This document shows, one piece after another, positions 1,139-34,312 of a stretch of 51,689 bases of DNA (positions within the stretch are counted from its first letter, which is position 1; the number at the start of each line of letters is the position of its first letter). The stretch comes from Verrucomicrobiota bacterium. Lineage in GTDB: Bacteria > Verrucomicrobiota > Verrucomicrobiia > Limisphaerales > JACDHS01. The stretch is taken from contig JACDHS010000016.1 of assembly GCA_013820875.1 (NCBI GenBank), forward strand, positions 1-51,689. The letters are read 5' to 3'. The translations under genes were made by a program, and so were the position numbers. The notes beneath the pieces are model-generated. The model did not search any database. It was not told the DNA's origin and saw only the letters and a program-made list of their open reading frames with translations.

Positions 1139-2143
1139 TTACTCCGCGATCGTGACGGTTTCGAGTTTCTCGATTTTCCGGCGCAGTTTCGCGAGTGCCA
1201 ATTCCTGTATCTGGCGAATACGTTCGCGGGTCACACCGAATTTCTCACCGATGACTTCGAGTGTTTCCTCGTCATTGCCATCAAGCCCAAAACGTTGACG
1301 CAGAATTTCCTGCTCGCGGGCATCCAGGGTCGGCAGTAAATCGTGGATCAACTGGGAATTCGTTTTGCCCTCGAGTTCCTCGTACGGCGTGTCGGCGTTT
1401 TCATCCGCCACGATCTCAGAAACCGAGTTCGAGTTATCATCGCCGATCGGCGCGTCGAGAGAAGCTGGCTGAATCGAGGCTTTGCGATACTGCCCGATCC
1501 GCTTGGCTGGAATACCGGTCTCTTCACTCAACTCTTCATCGGAAGGCGGACGACCAAATTCATCATGCAACTTCGCTTCCGCACGGCGCATCTGCAGGAG
1601 TTTATCTCCCACATGCACTGGCAGACGAATGGTTTTCGACTGGTCAGAAAGCGCGCGCCGAATGGATTGCTTGATCCACCAGGAAGCATAGGTGGAGAGT
1701 TTAGCCCCTTTCGTAGGGTCAAAACGTTCCACGGCTTTCATCAGGCCGATGTTCCCTTCATTGATCAGATCGAGCAGCGGCAACCCATAGTTTTCATACT
1801 CACGAGCGATCTTCACCACCAGGCGAAGGTTCGCCTTGATCATGTGCTCGCGAGCGTCGGCGTCACCTTTCTTGATCCGCTTGGCCAACGCGATTTCTTC
1901 CTTGGGCGTCAGCAACTGAGTGGTGCCGACCTCGCGGAGGTAAAGTGTGAAAGGGTCCGTATTACGCTCTGTCGCAATGATTGGCTCAATGCGAGGAGTA
2001 ACTGGAACAACGATCGGTTTCGAAGGCTTTTCCATTCTGGCAATACGCACCGGTTTACCGACCTGCTTTTTCGGTTTCAAATCAGAGCGGCGCAATACCG
2101 GCGCCTTCTTTTTACCGAACTTGATATTTACATTTGCTTTCAT
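1139..2143 (-). CDS. RNA polymerase sigma-70 family factor (RpoD/RpoS class)
   Basis: A 334-aa sigma factor with a basic N-terminal tail and no region 1.1. Region 1.2 is seen at DPFTLYLREVG (about residue 64), region 2 with ANLRLVVKIAREYENYG, LINEGNIGLMKAVERFDP and STYASWWIKQSIRRAL (about 100-165), region 3 (about 166-245), and region 4 with RQRFGL...TLEVIGEKFGVTRERIRQI (about 275-315). All promoter-contacting segments look intact, so it should be active; length and missing region 1.1 resemble group 2 factors or the short primary factors of some phyla. The start at 2143 has a perfect AAAGGAGGT 3 nt upstream. Its ATG overlaps the stop of the RND pump gene (ATGA), implying translational coupling to an efflux pump, which is unusual. 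Confidence 0.95.
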   Translation of the reverse strand: MKANVNIKFGKKKAPVLRRSDLKPKKQVGKPVRIARMEKPSKPIVVPVTPRIEPIIATERNTDPFTLYLREVGTTQLLTPKEEIALAKRIKKGDADAREHMIKANLRLVVKIAREYENYGLPLLDLINEGNIGLMKAVERFDPTKGAKLSTYASWWIKQSIRRALSDQSKTIRLPVHVGDKLLQMRRAEAKLHDEFGRPPSDEELSEETGIPAKRIGQYRKASIQPASLDAPIGDDNSNSVSEIVADENADTPYEELEGKTNSQLIHDLLPTLDAREQEILRQRFGLDGNDEETLEVIGEKFGVTRERIRQIQELALAKLRRKIEKLETVTIAE

Positions 2144-5100
2144 TCTACCTCCTTTAATTTGACACCGTTCGCGCCAAATTGTTGCGAATTTTGTTGGTTT
2201 ATTTGCTGACTCAAAAGTTTCTGTTCCGTCCACCCGCCACCCAGCGCACGGATGAGCTGAACGGCTGCAACCGCCTGTTGACCAGCGAGTTGCGCCTGAC
2301 CCCGCTGGGCATTTAACGCCCCCCGGTTGGCGTCCACCACTTCGAGAAAACTGACGAAGCCAGCCTTATAACGATCAGTTGCGAGCGAAAACGCCTTTTT
2401 CGAAGCTGCCACCGCACGTTCCTGGGCTGCTGCCTGCTGCGCGAGAAAGTGAATTCCCGCCAGGCTGTTCTCCACATCACCGAACGCCACAAGGATGCGT
2501 TGGCGATAATTAGCAACCGTTTCCTCGTAAGCAGCGCGAGAACGATTCAAGGCGGCCTGATTTCTTCCACCGGCGAAGATCGGCAACGAGACACTCGGGC
2601 CGATAGACCAGATGTGGCTGTCCCAGTCGAACAACGAACTTAACTCACCACTCATGAACCCACCACTGCCGGTTAAACGCAAAACCGGGAAAAATGCGGC
2701 CTTCGCAACCCCGATCTGGGCATTGGCCGCAGCGAGTTGACGCTCCGCCTCCGCAACATCCGGTCGGCGCTCCAACAAGTCAGCCGGTAACCCGGCTGGA
2801 ATTGCAAGGGCGCGAACGTTCCACACGTTTTCATTTTTTGCCAATCGAAAATTCGATGGATTTTCACCAGCCAAAATGGCAATGGCATTTTCCAGTGCCG
2901 CGCGGCGCCGGTTCACTGCCGCAAGCTCCGCTTCGCTCGCCGCCAACTCGGTGTCGGCCCGCGCAATTTCGAGCTCATTGCCAATACCCCCTTCAAACCG
3001 ACTGCGCACAAGCCGCACCAACTCCTTGCGCAGATCCAAGCTGTCCGCAAGCGTTACGATCTCGGCGTCCAGTGAACGCAATGCAAAATAATTTTGCGCG
3101 AGATCGGCCTGCAATGTGAGCAGCACATTTTGCAATGAAGCTTCGGAAGCCTGCGCATTCGCCCGGGCGCTCTCGAAGCCGCGACGGACGCGCCCCCACA
3201 AGTCAACTTCATAACTCAGATCCAACGGCGCGCGAAACGTGTTCGCCGTGATGTCGCCAAAGCTCGGTTCCTGGTTGGGTGAAAAACGCTCACGCCTCCA
3301 GCTAGGATTGGAATCCAAGGTCGGCAACAAATCCGCGCGGGTGACCCGCGCCGTCGCCCGGGCCTGGTCAACGCGAGCCACAGCCGCTCGCAACTCTTGA
3401 TTGGCACTGGTGGCCCGTTGTTGTAATTCGTTCAACTGCGCATCGTCAAAAATCTCCCACCAGGCGCCCTTCGGCAGATGATCGAGCGGCGTGGCTTCTT
3501 TCCACTGGCCGAGATCGTTGGTGCTGACGTTTTTGTATGCAGCAGGGGCGATTGTCTCCGGACGCTTGTAATCCGGCCCAACTTTGCAACCCGTCAACAC
3601 GACACCAGCGAGAGCCAGCAATGAAACGGTTCCGACAGCAACAACCTTGTTCGTTGTAACCGGCTTCTTTTGCCAGCCGATCTTCATCAGAACGACATAG
3701 AACACCGGGGTGAGAAACAACCCAACCAACGTCACGCCGATCATTCCGGAGAACACCGCAATTCCCATTGCCTGACGCATCTCGGCGCCTGCTCCGCGGG
3801 AGATAACCAGCGGAAATACCCCGGCGATAAAGGCAATGGATGTCATTAAGATTGGACGCAACCGGAGGCGGCAGGCTTCAACCGCAGCATCATAGGGCGA
3901 CAATCCTTCCTCCTCCTGTTTGTGCTTGGCAAATTCGACAATCAAAATCGCGTTCTTGCAGGCCAATCCCACCAGCACGATCAAGCCGATCTGCGTGAAG
4001 ATATTGTTGTCCTGACCCGAAAAATAAACGCCCGCGATGGCAAACAACAAACAAAGTGGCACGACTAAAATAATTGTCAGCGGCAAACGCAAACTTTCGT
4101 ATTGCGCCGCAAGCACAAGGAACACGAGCAGGATGCAAAGCGGATAGATGTAAACCGCACTGTTGCCCGCGAGGATTCGTTGATAGGTCAGATCAGTCCA
4201 TTCGAACGCCATTCCTTTCGGCAGATTTTTGCTCACCATAGTAGCAACGGCGTCTTCTGCTTCGCCGGAACTAAATCCAGGCGCAGGACCGCCGTTGATT
4301 TCTGCAGCGGGATACCCGTTGTAACGCACCACCCGATCCGGTCCGTGCGATTCCGTGACTTTCACCAGCGAACCGAGCGGAACCATTTGTCCGTTCAGGT
4401 TGCGCGTTTTTAGACGCGTCACATCTTCCGCGCGATCACGGAAACGAGCGTCGGCTTGTGCGATCACCTGGTAAGTCCGGCCAAACAGGTTGAAATCGTT
4501 CACGTAAAGAGAACCAAGATAAATCTGCATCGTTTCAAACAAATTCTGCAGCGGCACACCTTGCGCTTTCGCCTTCACACGATCGATTTCTGCATCGAGT
4601 TGCGGGACGTTGACAGTAAACGTTGAAAACAATCCAGCCAACCCCGGCGTTTGATTCCCCTGATTGACCAATGCCTGAGTGTTCTGGAAAAGAGCGTCGT
4701 AGCCGAGACCGGCACGGTCTTCGACATACATTTTAAATCCGGAGATCGCGCTCATGCCGTTCACGGGCGGCGGCGTCACGGCGAGGACAAACGCTTCCTG
4801 AATTCCTGCGAACTGCTGATTCAATGCCCCTGCAATAGCTGCACCAGTCAGCTCCGGTGTTTTGCGTTTATTGAAATCATCCAGCCCAAAGAAAACAATG
4901 CCGGCATTCGGCGCGACGCTGAATCCGCTGATGCTCAATCCCGGAAAGGCAATTGCATCTTTCACACCCGGCGTTTTCAAGCCGATGTCCGACATCCTGC
5001 GAATCACCTCTTCCGTGCGATCCAATGACGAAGCGTCTGGCAACTGCGTGAAAGCGACCAAGTATTGCTTATCCTGATCCGGTACGAAGCCGGTGGGAAC

Positions 5101-6801
5101 CTTCAGGAAACTCCAACCGGTCAGGCACAGCAATCCCACATAGAGGACGATAGCAATCGCGCTCTTGCGCACGACACTGCCGACACCAGCCGCATACTTG
5201 TTTCCAGACCAGGTGAACAAACGATTGAACGGACGGAAAAACCATCCCAAAGAGCGGTCCATTCCGCGTGAGAGAAAATCTTTCTTCTCATTGTGCCCCT
5301 TCAGCAACAACGCACAAAGCGCCGGAGACAAGGTCAAGGAGTTGAAAGCCGAGATAACAGTCGAAATCGCAATCGTGATCGCGAACTGTTTGTAAAACTG
5401 TCCGGTCAACCCGCTGATGAACGCTGTCGGAATAAAGACCGCGCACAACACCAGCGCAATCGCGATGATCGGCCCCGTCACCTCATTCATCGCTTTCCGG
5501 GTCGCTTCAAATGGCGTCAACCCAAGACTGATATTTCGTTCCACGTTTTCGACGACGACAATTGCGTCATCCACCACGATACCGATGGCCAGCACCAACC
5601 CGAACAAGGTCAGCGCATTGATGCTGAACCCAAGCGCCAGCATCACAGCAAAAGTGCCGACCAGCGAAACCGGCACTGCGGCCAGCGGAATGATCGAAGC
5701 GCGCCATGTCTGCAAAAACACGATCACAACAATCACCACCAGGAACACCGCTTCAAACAGTGTGTTACGCACTGCTTTGATTGAGTCGCGCACGAAAACC
5801 GTCGGGTCATAGACAACGGAGTAATCCAAGCCTTCAGGAAAATCCTTCTTCAAATCGTCCATCGTGCTGCGGACATCTTCGGAGAGCTGAATGGCGTTTG
5901 CGCCCGGCGCCTGAAAAATGGGAATGGCCACCGCTGCTTTGTTATTCAGCAGCGACCGCAACGAATATCCGGAAGCACCGAGCTCAATTCGCGCCACATC
6001 CTTGAGCAGCGTTTTTTCTCCGTTCGGACCGGACTTTACGATGATCCCGGAAAACTCTTCCTCCGTGAGCAAACGGCCTTTGGCGTTGATTTGGAGTTCC
6101 AGATTCACACCGGAACCGCTGACCGGTGGCTGCCCCACTGCACCAGCGGCGATCTGAACGTTCTGTTCCCGGATCGCATTAACAATGTCGCTGGCCCCGA
6201 GGCCGCGCGCTGCTGCCTTGTCCGGATCGAGCCAAATGCGCATGGCATAATCACCTGAACCGAACACTTCTACAGACCCCGCACCCGGCACACGCGCCAA
6301 AACATCGCGCACCTGAAGCGTGGCGTAATTGCGCAGGTAAACTTCGTCATAGCGATCATTCGGGGAGAGCAAATGCACAACCATCGTCAGATCGGGCGAT
6401 TGCTTCACCGTGGTCACACCAAAGCGACGCACTTCCTCTGGCAGTTTCGGCAACGCCTGCGAAACACGGTTCTGCACCAGCACCTGTGCTTTATCAACGT
6501 CGGTTCCAAGCTTGAACGTGACCGTCAGCATCATCACGCCATCGCTCGTTGACTGGGAAAGCATGTAAAGCGAGTTTTCGACACCGTTGACCGCCTGCTC
6601 AAGCGGAGCGGCGACTGTTTCAGCAATCGTTTTCGGATTCGCCCCGGGATACATCGCGCGCACTACGATCGTCGGCGGGACAACTTCCGGATACTCACTG
6701 ATCGGCAGACGCCACATCGCGATCAATCCAAGCAGGAAAATGATCGCGGAAAGCACTCCCGCGAAGATCGGTCGGCTGATGAAAAAATGTGAAAATCTCA
6801 T
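2140..6801 (-). CDS. RND (HAE1-type) efflux pump fused to a NodT/OprM-type outer-membrane channel
   Basis: A 1553-aa in-frame fusion. Residues 1 to about 1045 are a complete AcrB/MexB-type proton-driven multidrug pump: N-terminal FFISRPIFAGVLSAIIFLLG, periplasmic porter loops, and TM4 with GIVVDDAIVVVENVER carrying the paired Asp of the proton relay. Residues about 1050-1072 are a basic patch (WQKKP), a hydrophobic helix and a lipobox LTGC with Cys1072. Residues 1072-1553 have the size and pattern of an OprM/NodT channel lipoprotein (CKVGPDYKRP start, ERRPDVAEAERQL, SLPIFAGGR). AcrB ends in the cytoplasm, so the extra helix could act as an internal signal sequence that signal peptidase II may cut, releasing a lipidated channel; alternatively it stays as a thirteenth membrane helix. 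It follows the membrane-fusion gene by 18 nt. Confidence 0.95.
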   Translation of the reverse strand: MRFSHFFISRPIFAGVLSAIIFLLGLIAMWRLPISEYPEVVPPTIVVRAMYPGANPKTIAETVAAPLEQAVNGVENSLYMLSQSTSDGVMMLTVTFKLGTDVDKAQVLVQNRVSQALPKLPEEVRRFGVTTVKQSPDLTMVVHLLSPNDRYDEVYLRNYATLQVRDVLARVPGAGSVEVFGSGDYAMRIWLDPDKAAARGLGASDIVNAIREQNVQIAAGAVGQPPVSGSGVNLELQINAKGRLLTEEEFSGIIVKSGPNGEKTLLKDVARIELGASGYSLRSLLNNKAAVAIPIFQAPGANAIQLSEDVRSTMDDLKKDFPEGLDYSVVYDPTVFVRDSIKAVRNTLFEAVFLVVIVVIVFLQTWRASIIPLAAVPVSLVGTFAVMLALGFSINALTLFGLVLAIGIVVDDAIVVVENVERNISLGLTPFEATRKAMNEVTGPIIAIALVLCAVFIPTAFISGLTGQFYKQFAITIAISTVISAFNSLTLSPALCALLLKGHNEKKDFLSRGMDRSLGWFFRPFNRLFTWSGNKYAAGVGSVVRKSAIAIVLYVGLLCLTGWSFLKVPTGFVPDQDKQYLVAFTQLPDASSLDRTEEVIRRMSDIGLKTPGVKDAIAFPGLSISGFSVAPNAGIVFFGLDDFNKRKTPELTGAAIAGALNQQFAGIQEAFVLAVTPPPVNGMSAISGFKMYVEDRAGLGYDALFQNTQALVNQGNQTPGLAGLFSTFTVNVPQLDAEIDRVKAKAQGVPLQNLFETMQIYLGSLYVNDFNLFGRTYQVIAQADARFRDRAEDVTRLKTRNLNGQMVPLGSLVKVTESHGPDRVVRYNGYPAAEINGGPAPGFSSGEAEDAVATMVSKNLPKGMAFEWTDLTYQRILAGNSAVYIYPLCILLVFLVLAAQYESLRLPLTIILVVPLCLLFAIAGVYFSGQDNNIFTQIGLIVLVGLACKNAILIVEFAKHKQEEEGLSPYDAAVEACRLRLRPILMTSIAFIAGVFPLVISRGAGAEMRQAMGIAVFSGMIGVTLVGLFLTPVFYVVLMKIGWQKKPVTTNKVVAVGTVSLLALAGVVLTGCKVGPDYKRPETIAPAAYKNVSTNDLGQWKEATPLDHLPKGAWWEIFDDAQLNELQQRATSANQELRAAVARVDQARATARVTRADLLPTLDSNPSWRRERFSPNQEPSFGDITANTFRAPLDLSYEVDLWGRVRRGFESARANAQASEASLQNVLLTLQADLAQNYFALRSLDAEIVTLADSLDLRKELVRLVRSRFEGGIGNELEIARADTELAASEAELAAVNRRRAALENAIAILAGENPSNFRLAKNENVWNVRALAIPAGLPADLLERRPDVAEAERQLAAANAQIGVAKAAFFPVLRLTGSGGFMSGELSSLFDWDSHIWSIGPSVSLPIFAGGRNQAALNRSRAAYEETVANYRQRILVAFGDVENSLAGIHFLAQQAAAQERAVAASKKAFSLATDRYKAGFVSFLEVVDANRGALNAQRGQAQLAGQQAVAAVQLIRALGGGWTEQKLLSQQINQQNSQQFGANGVKLKEVE
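2147..2155 (-). promoter_or_regulatory. Strong Shine-Dalgarno of the sigma-factor gene
   Basis: AAAGGAGGT on the minus strand, embedded in the last codons of the pump-channel gene and 3 nt before the ATG at 2143. It decides the start among several possible ones. Most other genes in the window have much weaker sites, so translation of this sigma factor appears to be set high. Confidence 0.85.
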
Positions 6802-8362: not shown

Positions 8363-8971
8363 TTAAACTTCTTTACGATTGTTCGCTCCCAGCATGGACA
8401 GCACCCCGTCCGGCATCTCCCTCAGCACTTCGGCATCGTTCAAAATGCGCGCCTGGGTGAGAAGCCCTTCCGAATAGGCAAACAGCATTCGGGCCTTGGC
8501 CCCGGCATCAGGGGCATCAATCAACCCTGCCGCGTGAGCATCGCGAATCGCAGTTTCGATATAGCAGTGATAATGACCCAGAACTTCCTTGATCTTGTTG
8601 TGCAATTTTTCATCCTGATTGCAAACCTCTGCGCCTAAAGAAAATAAAGGACAGCCCAGCACACAACCGCATTCCTTCTTCATCTCCAACTGCTTTTTGT
8701 AACCCATCTCACAAAAATTACGGATTCGCTCCAGCGGAGGGACGGTGGGCGAAAAGACTGTATCCAACTCCGCCTTGCGACATTGCCAATTAACATCCAG
8801 GGCAGCGATCGCCAGATCTGACTTGGATTCGAAGAAATAGTAAAAGCTCCCCTTCTTCACCCCCGCCTTTTCACAGATATGATCAATCGTCGTGCTGCCA
8901 AAAGAGCCCTGCCAGATTAACTCCAGCACAGCCTGCAACAACCGCTCTTTGGCATCACTCGTTCGTCCCAT
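8363..8971 (-). CDS. TetR/AcrR-family transcriptional repressor
   Basis: 202 aa. The N-terminal TetR helix-turn-helix is clear: RLLQAVLELIWQGSF, TTIDHICEKAGVKKGSFYYFFESKSDL (about residues 10-55). The ligand domain contains a cysteine-rich patch (ECGCVLGCPL near 100-108), matching the GC-x-x-G motif of YxaF/LmrA-type regulators; whether the cysteines sense anything is unknown. It is encoded directly upstream of the efflux operon on the same strand, and matching 18-bp palindromes lie before its own start and before the next gene. The likely role is repression of the pump and of itself, relieved by a pump substrate. Confidence 0.93.
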   Translation of the reverse strand: MGRTSDAKERLLQAVLELIWQGSFGSTTIDHICEKAGVKKGSFYYFFESKSDLAIAALDVNWQCRKAELDTVFSPTVPPLERIRNFCEMGYKKQLEMKKECGCVLGCPLFSLGAEVCNQDEKLHNKIKEVLGHYHCYIETAIRDAHAAGLIDAPDAGAKARMLFAYSEGLLTQARILNDAEVLREMPDGVLSMLGANNRKEV

Positions 8972-9006: not shown

Positions 9007-9262
9007 TATAGTGTGAAAGAAAACTGATCTTACCGCGTCTATGGGAGTTTTTAACACTTGAAATGCCCGACGGATCATCCAAGAGAGAGGGATGACGTAA
9101 ATTAAATTAGCAGGTGGGCAAGCAAAGCGTCGCACCGCGCCAGTGGAACCTCCATGTTCTGGTTTTCCAACTCCGCCCAACGTTTTTGCTCTCTTGTCCC
9201 GTGTTTTATAGACGGATTGGTCCCGCCTTGCCGCAATCAACCTTTTTTTCGTCTCCCAAAAT

Positions 9263-9437
9263 TACTTTTTCCCGGGCAAATGTTTCGTCGGAGCAAAATA
9301 AATTACCTTTTCCCGAAAAAAGGTTCCTTCCGGGCGCGGGAATTTACTTTTTCCCGGGCAAAAGTCTTTTTTGAGCGTCCAAAAATACTTTTTCCCGGGA
9401 AAAACTTCCGTCGGAGCGAAAAAAAATGCTTTTTCCC
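9263..9437. repeat. 41-bp tandem array (four full units plus a partial)
   Basis: Units begin TACTTTTTCCC or near variants at 9263, 9304, 9345, 9386 and 9427, an exact 41-bp spacing. Each has a TTTTTCCCGGG core that is a near or full palindrome (TTTTTCCCGGGAAAAA in the fourth unit), followed by a GTCGGAGC-like and an A-rich segment. The half-unit before 9263 resembles the second half of a unit. The array fills much of the 548-nt gap between uvrC and tetR; the rest of that gap (9007-9240 and 9445-9519) shows no gene. Confidence 0.9.
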
Positions 9438-9519
9438 GGCATCGCGTGGTTCTAAAACAACAGTTTGGCAGGGATTTACGATTGAGGCGGGGGTTGCAGA
9501 GTAAGAGGAGAGGGCGAGA

Positions 9520-11205
9520 TCAAGACGGGAGCGTCTCTTTGGGAATTTCGGAGACTTCCGAGACAGAACGCGCCACCAGGAATGTTTTCAACTCCGCCGC
9601 CGCTTTGCCGCCAAACCCGGAGACTTCAGCAATCTGTTCCACCGAAGCCAGGCGCAACCGCTGCACGGAACCGAACTTTTTCAGTAACGCTGCTTTGCGG
9701 TTCTCACCAATGCCGGGGAACTCGTCCAGGATGCTTTCGGAGATTTTCTTCAATCGCAGCTTGGCATTGTAGGTATTAGCGAAGCGATGCGATTCGTCGC
9801 GCACTCGTTGCAACAGTTTCAAGGCGCCGATGTCATGGCTCAATCGGAGCGGCTCGGCCTCGCCCGGCCGATGGATCTCCTCATATTCCTTTGCCAATCC
9901 GATGATCGGAATGTGCGATAAACCGAGCTTGGCTAACTCCTCGCAGGCCGCGCTGAGTTGCCCTTTGCCGCCATCAATTAGAATGAGATCGGGATACCCG
10001 CCCGATTCAGCTTTCGGAACCCAGGGAGCATTCATTTCATCACTCGGCGGGAGTTCCTCGGCTGAAGGGATTTCCTCCACAACTTTCTCCCCCCCCTCTG
10101 GCGGGAGCACCGATGGTGACGTTTCACTCACGTCAGGCACTCCAACTTTAAACTTCGAACCTTGAACCTTGAACTCACTCTTCAGCCTGGAGTAACGGCG
10201 ACGGACTGTTTCGGCCATGCAGGCGAAGTCGTCCTGGCCGGTGACTGTTTTCATTTTAAAACGCCGATAGTTGGAACGATCGGGGCGTCCGCGCCAAAAA
10301 CTCACCATGGAAGCGACCATGAACGTGCCGCTGATATTGGAGATGTCGAAGCCTTCGATCCGTTCCGGCACTTTCGCCAGGTTCAAAACGCGCGCCAACT
10401 CTCGCATGTCCGATTCCGGATTGATCGAGACCGGCAACTTGTAAGGAATGCGCTCGAACTTCTCCGTCTTCTGCGTCGTGCGACGCAGATCGGTCAGGGC
10501 GTCGCGGAGTTCTGCTGCTTTCTCGAAATTCAAAGCGGCCGCCGCCTTTCTCATTTCGTCTTCCATCTGCTTTTCGAATTCGCCGGTCTGGCCTTCGAGA
10601 AATTCACAAGCGGCCATCACCTGTTCGAGATATTGCGCGCGGGTAACGTTTCCGATGCAGGGAGCGGTGCAGTATTTCAGATTCCCGTAGAGACAATGTT
10701 TGTAATCCACCTGCGTCGGGGTGAGCGGACGGCATCCGCGCAGGTTGAACTTGCGCCGCACCATCGTCATGGCATTGCGAAGCGAACCGGAATTGGCGAA
10801 CGGCCCGAAGTAACGAGCGCCGTCGTCGGTCTTGAGACGGGTCAGCGTAAAGCGCGGAATGGGATCGTTCAGGTTTACCTTGAGGAGTAGAAAGCGTTTG
10901 TCATCGCGGAAGCTAACGTTGTAACGCGGCTGAAATTCTTTGATCAGCTTCCCTTCGAGCAGAAGCGATTCCGGCTCGCTCTTCACCACATGCACGTCGA
11001 GATCGTGAATGGCATCCACGAGCGCGCGAAATTTGAGGTCCCATCCCTGGCGGCGTGATGGATGGAAGTATTGATTCACCCGTTTCTTCAGGTCGCGCGC
11101 TTTTCCAACGTATATGACCGTGCCGAACCGGTCTTTCATCAGGTAGATGCCCGGTTTGTGCGGTAATTCGGAAAGTTTGCGACGAACCTGCTCCGTCAAT
11201 GGCAT
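9520..11205 (-). CDS. uvrC: UvrC, excinuclease ABC subunit C
   Basis: 561 aa. Together with UvrAB it makes the two incisions around bulky DNA lesions. The N-terminal GIY-YIG nuclease is intact (PHKPGIYLMKD, VIYVGKA, LKKRVNQYF). Then a Cys cluster (CLYGNLKYCTAPCIG), the UVR motif (LNFEKAAELRDALTDL), the RNase H-like C-terminal nuclease (EGFDISNISGTFMVASMV, DLILIDGGKGQL, HRFANTYN) and a terminal helix-hairpin-helix pair. Between RRRYSRL and DLILIDGG sits an extra segment of about 59 residues (about 343-401) that begins with a TTGAACC heptamer repeat and continues as Pro/Glu/Ser-rich sequence. The ATG at 11205 is preferred; a TTG at 11223 would add six residues. No good ribosome site is seen. 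Confidence 0.97.
   Translation of the reverse strand: MPLTEQVRRKLSELPHKPGIYLMKDRFGTVIYVGKARDLKKRVNQYFHPSRRQGWDLKFRALVDAIHDLDVHVVKSEPESLLLEGKLIKEFQPRYNVSFRDDKRFLLLKVNLNDPIPRFTLTRLKTDDGARYFGPFANSGSLRNAMTMVRRKFNLRGCRPLTPTQVDYKHCLYGNLKYCTAPCIGNVTRAQYLEQVMAACEFLEGQTGEFEKQMEDEMRKAAAALNFEKAAELRDALTDLRRTTQKTEKFERIPYKLPVSINPESDMRELARVLNLAKVPERIEGFDISNISGTFMVASMVSFWRGRPDRSNYRRFKMKTVTGQDDFACMAETVRRRYSRLKSEFKVQGSKFKVGVPDVSETSPSVLPPEGGEKVVEEIPSAEELPPSDEMNAPWVPKAESGGYPDLILIDGGKGQLSAACEELAKLGLSHIPIIGLAKEYEEIHRPGEAEPLRLSHDIGALKLLQRVRDESHRFANTYNAKLRLKKISESILDEFPGIGENRKAALLKKFGSVQRLRLASVEQIAEVSGFGGKAAAELKTFLVARSVSEVSEIPKETLPS
10143..10176. repeat. Heptamer microsatellite inside uvrC
   Basis: Degenerate tandem copies of a CTTGAAC/GTTCAAG heptamer, encoding EFKVQGSKFKV in UvrC. 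It marks the start of an insertion absent from ordinary UvrC proteins and is likely an expansion or the scar of an inserted intergenic repeat. Confidence 0.75.
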
Positions 11206-11396
11206 GAATTTAACTTCGCGCAAACCGAGTCCGGCGCAAAGGGGAATAAATAAATTGGTTCGTATCCATCCCTATCCCATTTTCAGCAATTTTCAGACAG
11301 GCTCTTACCTGCTGTATCGCGACTGGACGTTCGATCTGCCGAAAGCGTTCGGCGTTTCAAAACGTTCAGCGGGTTGAAAATCCGCGACACAGCAGG

Positions 11397-33329: not shown

Positions 33330-33642
33330 ATTTTTGTTTTTGTTTGATGTTTAAAAATTAACAACCCTCTTTATCTCACAAAAGGACCCCGTTATGTAAG
33401 GCGAGTAAACTGCAGCAATTACTTGCCGCCCTGTTAACCCACTGATGCAGAGGGCTTTCTGCACACAAAAAAATTTCAAAATAATTACAAACAAACGCAA
33501 ACCCGCATGAATAAAGGCCGAAACGTGGGTCACCGCGATAATAACCAGCAATAGATAGGGCGGCGCACAAGCCACGCTGAGCATTCCAAGCCATAAAAGC
33601 CCGCAAAACGCGCAAAAACCGACTTTGCAAAAACAACCGCCC

Positions 33643-33929
33643 CCGTTTCCGATCGGAAGCTCTGCCCAATGAAAGAATGAACCGCCCAACCGGTCGGAAA
33701 CGAGCCGTTTAAACTCAAAAAAAAGCATTTCCGACCGGTCAGGCAGTCAAAGGAAACGATCCCCCGGAGTTCCGCCCGGAAACGCCCTTGAAAAATCCAA
33801 AAAAATGCATTTCCGGACGGAAACTGGCTCAAGTGAGCGAGAAAAATGGATTTCCAACCGGAAGCAGGCCAAGTGAAAACCAATAAATGGATCACCGAAC
33901 GGATAAGCTGCCCGCAGAGCGGCAATTGA
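33643..33929. repeat. 41-bp tandem array, seven diverged units
   Basis: Units start at 33643, 33684, 33725, 33766, 33807, 33848 and 33889, always 41 nt apart. The best-kept part is GnATTTCCGnnCGGAA, a palindromic core (TTTCCGGACGGAAA in the fifth unit), followed by a more variable segment ending in an A-rich run. It lies in the non-coding gap 33330-34440. Open frames crossing it on the minus strand are repeat artefacts because 41 is not a multiple of 3. Confidence 0.85.
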
Positions 33930-34312
33930 AGGTGGCCGAGGGTTTCAACCGGTTTCAACCCACGGATCAGGAAGCAGTTGCCGATCCCAGTCGCGGAGTG
34001 ACGCCCCGCATTGTAGCCGTGCGCGGAACGCTGGATTTATCCAGGATTTATCCGGCAGCAATCTCCCAAACCTAACGCTGACTCCAGAACCACCTGGCGC
34101 ATTCGGGACAGATTCACGTTCCTGCCGGATGAATCCGGCGTTCCGTTTGCAATTTCAACTGAATCGTTCCGGCTATAGCGTTTACCAAAAGTCTTTCCGG
34201 ATAGGCACTTCAAGTTTCATCGGAAACGTCTGTCTTCCCGACGCCTTTCCGTTCGACCTACGCTGTCGGGGTAATCAACGCGGGCTGATCACAAACGCTT
34301 TTCTCGCAGAAA

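Follow-up and report, generated by a model that had tools for sequence, protein, structure and literature searches.

The array between uvrC and tetR

The window analysed here, a stretch of 51,689 nucleotides from contig JACDHS010000016.1 of a Verrucomicrobiota bacterium, carries a tandem array of 41-bp units between uvrC and the gene of a TetR-family regulator (Table 1). The initial annotation described five units at 9222-9445, exactly 41 nt apart, each with a palindromic core facing the same side of the helix, and took the constant phase of differing sequences as a hint of selection on spacing, for example for a DNA-bending or nucleoid protein. The spacing was confirmed: the five starts of the TTTTCCCG cores are separated by 41, 41, 41 and 41 bp, TRF calls one array of period 41 at 9258-9439 (4.4 copies, 68% match, 0% indel, score 147, against 48 for the second-ranked array of the window), and a lag-identity scan gave z = 10.5 at lag 41 and z = 8.2 at lag 82. 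The palindrome could be retained in part, since the exact TTTTTCCCGGG occurs in three of the five units (cores at 9264, 9346 and 9387) and the cores of the units at 9305 and 9428 are mismatched. The extent had to be revised as well, as the element that recurs in the genome reaches about 9227-9477. At a helical repeat of 10.5 bp per turn, 41 bp correspond to 3.9 turns, so that four steps drift by about 140 degrees; the cores therefore share a helix face only approximately, and exactly only at 10.25 bp per turn.

Table 1. Positions of the array, its parts and the neighbouring features in the window.
Feature	Position	Strand	Remarks
TetR-family regulator	8363..8971	-	array starts ~290 bp upstream of gene start
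Entire dispersed element	9227..9477 (approximate)	+	short head, array, tail GGCATCGC..
Tandem array	9258..9439	.	period 41 bp, ~4.4 copies, five cores; TRF, lag scan
Unit 1 core	9264..9276	+	ACTTTTTCCCGGG, exact
Unit 2 core	9305..9317	+	ACCTTTTCCCGAA, 3 mismatches
Unit 3 core	9346..9358	+	exact
Long inverted repeat within array	9348..9404	.	arms 27 nt, 89% complementary, 3 nt apart
Unit 4 core	9387..9399	+	exact
Unit 5 core	9428..9440	+	GCTTTTTCCCGGC, 2 mismatches
Tail common to three other copies	9441..9477	+	degenerate in window copy
uvrC	9520..11223	-	GIY-YIG, UVR motif, UvrC RNase H, HHH; element just past 3' end
Second, weaker array	33571..33924	.	lag 82 z 8.2, lag 41 z 5.9

An open reading frame of 116 aa that runs across the array (9154-9504) was rejected as a gene, because an array that is open in one frame remains open. 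Open reading frames of at least 100 aa overlie 30 of 60 arrays, which by a rough estimate is near chance.

The second array of the window belongs to the same period class and has a different sequence; by eye, its cores resemble TTTCCG NNN CGGAAA. Near it, at 34100-34175, lies a dispersed repeat (approximately CGGGACAGATTCACGTTCCTGCCGGATGAATCCGGCGTTCCG), which also flanks arrays of C9 and C20 (L106 2978-3162 and L108 18943-19209). Elsewhere in the window, a single open reading frame of 1553 aa (2140-6801, minus strand) apparently joins an RND-type inner-membrane efflux pump to an outer-membrane factor lipoprotein domain, a fusion read from the translation alone, and is adjoined by a HlyD-family gene.

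Copies of the element and the period of arrays across the genome

The genome to which the window belongs (G000; 5.70 Mb in 239 contigs) was searched as DNA for further copies of the element, and three were found, at C198:480-640, C159:503-642 and C12:39672-39822. All three have units of the window type and the tail (GGCATCGCCTGTTTGTAAACAGCAG...), of which the window copy has a degenerate form. They carry two, two and three cores, respectively, against five in the window, and the spacing within the family is 41 bp except in the C159 copy, where the loss of one A from an A-run leaves 40 bp. A DNA search for the window family in 58 genomes matched G000 only, with no match in the 57 others.

The check for a 41-bp periodicity across the genome, as proposed in the initial annotation, was made in 24% of it (z > 6, lags 12-130), which comprised 42 contigs or parts of contigs, 1,384,247 bases with the window included. 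Ninety periodic places passed the scan in these 1.384 Mb, and all 63 arrays with a fundamental period of 28-65 bp fell at 40-43 bp (41 bp in 30 arrays, 42 in 21, 43 in ten and 40 in two). The remaining 27 places were distributed among multiples of three (17, including two at lag 126 and one at 129, with no peak at 42 or 43), lag 14 (three), lag 16 (six, five of which are 8-mers called by TRF) and lag 119 (one). TRF at a score of at least 100, applied to the window and to the stretches from G000 and its family relative G001, returned as exceptions one repeat of 33 bp (1.9 copies) and one of 48 bp (2 x 24). The arrays of C124, C178, C78, C6 and C14 have a 41-bp period and units unlike those of the window. 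Related 8-mer arrays (GGTGGAGT / GATGGAGT and their complements) were also observed in G000, at L095 11360, L127 5939, L132 4474, and L141 15200 and 16043.

Part of the scanned contigs had been picked because of matches in them; 26 stretches picked by contig number or length contained 25 TRF arrays in 428 kb. By extrapolation, we estimate the total for G000 at about 260-330 arrays.

A motif search for a triple TTTCCCGG with unconstrained gaps of 20-50 bp (a spacing of 28-58) in 293 genomes of the order, G000 included, matched four genomes: G000, G001, G166 and, through a low-complexity repeat, G024. The reversed control pattern gave no match in these genomes. At the 13 places in G000 the steps are 41 bp, apart from a single 40-bp step, in C124, and a single step that by its length is 42 bp; in G001 the steps are 41-42 bp among the matches listed (13 of 17). 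The 13 places of G000, which belong to six arrays, are all on the forward strand and none on the reverse, the orientation of the contigs being arbitrary. A period shared by such unlike sequences suggests that spacing or DNA shape is kept and not sequence.

One period in unrelated sequences could also be produced by a ruler of replication or repair that makes duplications of about four turns de novo, independently of function. Other periods in the range of 28-65 bp are, however, nearly absent, and arrays were seen only in two genomes of one family, although the replication machinery is presumably general. We consider such an origin highly improbable.

Dispersed elements and their placing in the genome

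All-against-all comparison of 60 arrays with 500 bp of flanking sequence revealed that many arrays have conserved flanks. A leader of about 150 bp, with about 80% identity, is common to families with different units (L114/L119/L084 with L088/L107/L111/L127/L139), and since it is shared in this way, some of these families descend from one element. Part of this leader matches the head of the C78 array and, by eye, also those of C178 and C124. In the family with 43-bp units, one side carries a leader of about 100 bp and the opposite side ends sharply. Over all elements, the number of tandem units, each 41-43 bp long, ranges from about 2 to 11. For twelve of the 60 arrays, no relative was found at 60 bits in either unit or flank; the window array is counted among them because its three relatives were too weak for the TRF threshold.

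Beside several arrays stands a sequence of 17 bases, GAAAACAGCGAGGAACC, which occurs at 62 places of the genome with at most two mismatches, as compared with two for the reversed control; these places include C12:39643, C14:10749, C15:13774 and C126:51229 of G000. Within the scanned DNA, three of 18 places are no more than 300 bp away from an array, where 0.8 would be expected, and five of 18 no more than 340 bp; two more, in C12 and C159, adjoin copies of the window family that are below the scan threshold. In C12, two inverted copies of the sequence make up, by eye, a near-perfect hairpin beside the array.

The dispersed copies, the sharp end of the 43-bp family, the regular spacing of palindromic units and the association with GAAAACAGCGAGGAACC could all be explained by a non-autonomous mobile element of the REP/BIME or MITE type, in which the palindromic units would be sites of a transposase or recombinase whose geometry sets the period. 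G000 has seven matches to Y1 transposases (PF01797), but such transposases are present in 17 of 20 genomes, its own included, also where the samples had no arrays. Moreover, neither a terminal inverted repeat nor a target duplication came to light, and symmetry is lacking in about half of the unit consensuses. Of the REP tags, GTAG is depleted, being present in one of 32 units where 8.3 are expected, and CGTC shows a moderate enrichment (14 of 32 units, 7.8 expected, sd 2.4). An enzyme-set period of this kind is in our opinion rather improbable.

The arrays lie between genes: 47 of the 49 TRF arrays of G000 are outside predicted genes, in DNA that is about 78% coding according to a simple codon-score caller, and the remaining two extend over the 5' end of a long open reading frame, whose start is perhaps called too far upstream. 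A coding repeat was rejected on this ground and because 41 and 43 are not multiples of three. The arrays show no preference for gene orientation, as neighbouring genes are in the same, convergent and divergent orientation in 18, 7 and 7 cases (15 arrays being without a neighbour on one side), compared with 112, 41 and 52 in other intergenic gaps of 200-1500 bp. The spacing between arrays is more even than random (CV 0.53 against 0.83 +- 0.14, P = 0.004, for 26 intervals of a fragmented assembly, with arrays less than 700 bp from stretch ends dropped), and intervals shorter than 6 kb are rare (3 against 7.5 expected, P = 0.025). Of the 63 arrays, ten are found at most 700 bp from a stretch end, where 2.7 are expected, and near-identical arrays therefore probably break the assembly. 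Contigs C6, C7, C19, C31, C64, C83, C111 and C124 bear an array at their start.

Unit families and palindromes

The units of 60 TRF arrays (50 from G000 and 10 from G001) were compared, and their consensuses form 32 families by shared 9-mers or 21 by shared 7-mers, numbers that are rough because the consensuses of arrays mixing 41 and 42 bp are blurred. Among the 21 families, no 5-mer or 6-mer was commoner than the highest count reached in dinucleotide-shuffled sets; the strongest single candidate was CGGAA, with 8 against 3.7 expected when dinucleotides are kept. GGAA was considered as a common binding sequence, since it is found in 19 of 32 units against 8.9 in simple shuffles, and was rejected, as no 5-mer or 6-mer stood out once dinucleotides were kept.

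Two-fold symmetry over the whole unit was detected at p < 0.05 in 29 of 60 consensuses. Palindromic centres number three or more in 35 of 65 arrays, and many of these centres are spaced 41-43 or 20.5-21 bp apart. The units of the 43-bp family (C9, C126, C175, C15 and C31) are not symmetric. Palindromes are thus common and not the rule, and what is constant is the period.

Palindromic units might act through RNA, if the arrays were transcribed into tandem hairpins with a regulatory or sponge role. The RNA of the window array folds better than shuffled sequences on both strands (z -2.6 on the plus and -2.2 on the minus strand), and the array also folds better than shuffles as DNA (z -3.2). Several observations speak against a role in RNA: the arrays have no favoured orientation to genes, mismatches within the palindromes are G-T in 64 and A-C in 73 cases, with no G-T excess (strands not normalised), and the seven Rfam matches at the window locus (miRNA families and Dictyoglomi-1) are all far below the gathering scores. 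Together with the lack of symmetry in about half of the unit consensuses, these data make hairpin RNAs a very unlikely explanation.

Conservation of spacing and predicted curvature

Adjacent units differ by 2411 mismatches against 70 changes of lag, of which 66 are of one base and four of two bases (band 36-48). In 82 paralogous pairs with at least 120 aligned columns, in which the two arrays of L114 were not paired together, gaps per substitution amounted to 0.065 within arrays (141/2175) and 0.116 in flanks (182/1563). This depletion of indels is about twofold and modest, and the values are not independent because the pairs overlap. The absence of drift of the period across families is a stronger argument for selected spacing than the depletion of indels; common origin explains part of it, since some families share the leader.

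The main rival explanation is the passive inheritance of the period in an expanding repeat lineage. One ancestral repeat element would have spread and diversified as junk or selfish DNA outside genes, its units homogenised by slippage and unequal exchange and its spacing unselected. The leader common to families with different units is in its favour, the comparison of L123 with L127_16511 (300 columns, 42 substitutions and no gap) fits the copying of whole elements, and the places of arrays are unmatched in G001 where they were compared. On the other hand, the period would be expected to drift over 21-32 families, yet it did so in none of the 63 arrays beyond 40-43 bp, twelve of 60 arrays lack a relative at 60 bits (the window's relatives being sub-threshold), and indels per substitution are fewer than in the flanks. 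Inheritance without selection is quite possible, although we lean against it as the whole explanation.

Curvature was modelled with nearest-neighbour wedge parameters. For the 47 arrays of at least 170 bp, the predicted bend per 42 bp is 32.3 degrees, compared with 23.4 degrees in dinucleotide shuffles, with z > 2 in 25 arrays, z < -2 in two and z 1.9 in the window array. The predicted bend peaks at the native period and falls when the units are shortened or lengthened, being lowest at -5 bp. Since the rise of curvature at about 42 bp is in part what any repeat of an integer number of turns would give, native units were compared with dinucleotide-shuffled units tiled at the same period, and the predicted values were 32.5 and 25.9 degrees (Wilcoxon P = 0.0005 for 53 arrays and P = 0.023 for 29 families); individually, two of 53 arrays were more curved than their tiled shuffled units at p < 0.05.

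The phasing of AT and GC within units is highest at the quarter-period harmonic (mean z 1.89). With run lengths kept, the 10.5-bp phasing drops to a weak signal, with a mean z of 0.49 +- 0.15 over 60 arrays and, without reaching significance, 0.35 +- 0.21 over 32 families. In addition, 41 and 43 bp are not both exactly four turns, so that the rotational phase drifts over 7-10 units. These data are compatible with selection for additive curvature as modelled, without proving it. The proposal that spacing is conserved and not sequence is supported far beyond the uvrC locus, by the period, the families, the indels and the predicted curvature, and the inheritance of repeat lineages explains part of the pattern.

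Distribution among relatives

A scan of 75 uvrC loci of other genomes (1.19 Mb, about 16 kb per locus, threshold z > 6.5) found 41-bp arrays only in L221, which appears to be from the same genome as G001. A further 692 kb, sampled from ten genomes that each represent another family of the order (one contig of G166 being picked for its match), showed no array with a fundamental period of 41-43 bp, where about 31 arrays would be expected at the density of G000. Repeats of 21 bp, or two turns, with 42 as a multiple, were found at the uvrC loci L164 and L181 and, among the ten genomes, in L268, L278 and weakly in L242. These 21-bp arrays, which belong to other families of the order, are degenerate (L268 411-714, L278 1221-1644, L164 5531-5794 and L181 10881-11074), and the frames of some of them are open, so that some may be coding.

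The position of the arrays is not conserved in the places compared. No array lies beside uvrC in L164, L221 or G001, and at two matches between G000 and G001 near an array (L153-L127 and L146-L108) the array was absent from the matching place in both. The outcome named as refuting in the initial annotation, an absence of further copies together with variable spacing in relatives, did not arise: G000 has three more copies, and the arrays of G001, the one relative of the family available for comparison, keep a spacing of 41-42 bp with other sequences. Within the genome, the C159 copy departs from 41 bp by one base. In this sample, in which the array-bearing family is represented by the two genomes G000 and G001, the elements are lineage-specific, and they are mobile or short-lived at each site. 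That arrays are not position-matched in G001 at the places compared counts against a site-specific role.

Discussion

We tentatively favour, over any single alternative and with less than even confidence, a mobile, BIME-like element whose arrays would serve as phased bends or as a scaffold for an architectural protein. The window array belongs, as one copy, to a class of dispersed non-coding elements that extends over the genome, with conserved sequence on one or both flanks and tandem units in the centre. The units differ between families while the period stays at about four helical turns, and the arrays would act as phased modules of DNA shape. About half of the arrays also have palindromic units, the centres of which lie one period or half a period apart (20.5-21 bp, or two turns, in the latter case). 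A bent or bendable unit repeated at four turns would let the bends sum into a curved segment of about 80-470 bp, on which an architectural protein, be it HU, gyrase or another, may begin to bind cooperatively, or which may pin a bend of the nucleoid. The elements would spread whole and be tolerated only between genes.

As to the protein, the DNA-bending or nucleoid factor proposed at the outset is still a conjecture. Matches to HU number three in G000 and mostly two in other genomes and occur in 19 of 20 genomes, and a histone-fold protein was found in none of the 20. Because HU is general, the histone fold absent and Y1 transposases widespread, no protein is singled out.

The arrays may be compared with several known repeats. 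Work on REP and BIME elements reports that REPs are grouped by sequence and tagged by GTAG or CGTC, that the inter-REP part of BIME-1 interacts with IHF and BIME-2 binds gyrase strongly, and that a role in chromosome organisation has been suggested (PMC2817692, PMC3733652). The present arrays resemble BIME-2 and clustered REPs in being intergenic, dispersed in more than 100 copies and built of clustered palindromic units at regular spacing (PMC2817692, PMC3733652). Here, unlike in BIMEs and REPs, 21-32 unit families share a period without a motif and only 29 of 60 consensuses are symmetric. We do not class the arrays as BIMEs, because a shared unit sequence was not found and GTAG is depleted (CGTC being moderately enriched), and the two may still work alike.

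Among known systems, the Borg tandem repeats come closest to many different arrays within a single genome. Their units are reported to be virtually perfect, of varied length and virtually unique within a genome, and 43-65% of them are in open reading frames (PMC9879509). Both systems have many arrays of different units across one genome, those of the Borgs being nearly absent from the host genomes examined in that work (PMC9879509). The units described here, unlike those of Borgs, have diverged, lie between genes, fall in part into dispersed families and belong to a single length class.

The nearest concept is A-tract periodicity, which is reported as a genome-wide signal of 10-11 bp, linked through intrinsic curvature to nucleoid proteins, with helically phased bends proposed to help compact the nucleoid (PMC3940949). 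The likeness lies in the phased bends; the present arrays differ in being discrete and phased at four turns.

Regular tandem repeats between genes, with varied unit lengths, also occur as CRISPR arrays and VNTR/MIRU minisatellites. In contrast to CRISPR, where unique spacers separate near-identical repeats, the whole unit repeats here and there are no spacers, and in contrast to VNTR/MIRU minisatellites, one period extends over many families. In searches of open-licence PMC text, no description of arrays with a fixed period of 41-43 bp in Verrucomicrobia came up among the papers listed.

A broader proposal is that hundreds of four-turn arrays, one every 15-22 kb or so, would be selected for geometry and not for sequence, the sequence being free to change as long as the spacing is kept, as landmarks of nucleoid domains made of phased bends, the 21-bp arrays being an older form in the order; we regard this as speculative and, taken as a whole, doubtful.

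Tandem repeats within one genome normally differ in unit length, whereas here perhaps a few hundred arrays with dozens of unlike sequences have one length of about four turns. Whether DNA shape alone can be a selected signal of the bacterial chromosome is a long-standing question, and here it would be directly testable by altering the period by a few bases. The arrays would also provide a natural series of sequences of constant geometry for studies of DNA bending and of nucleoid proteins.
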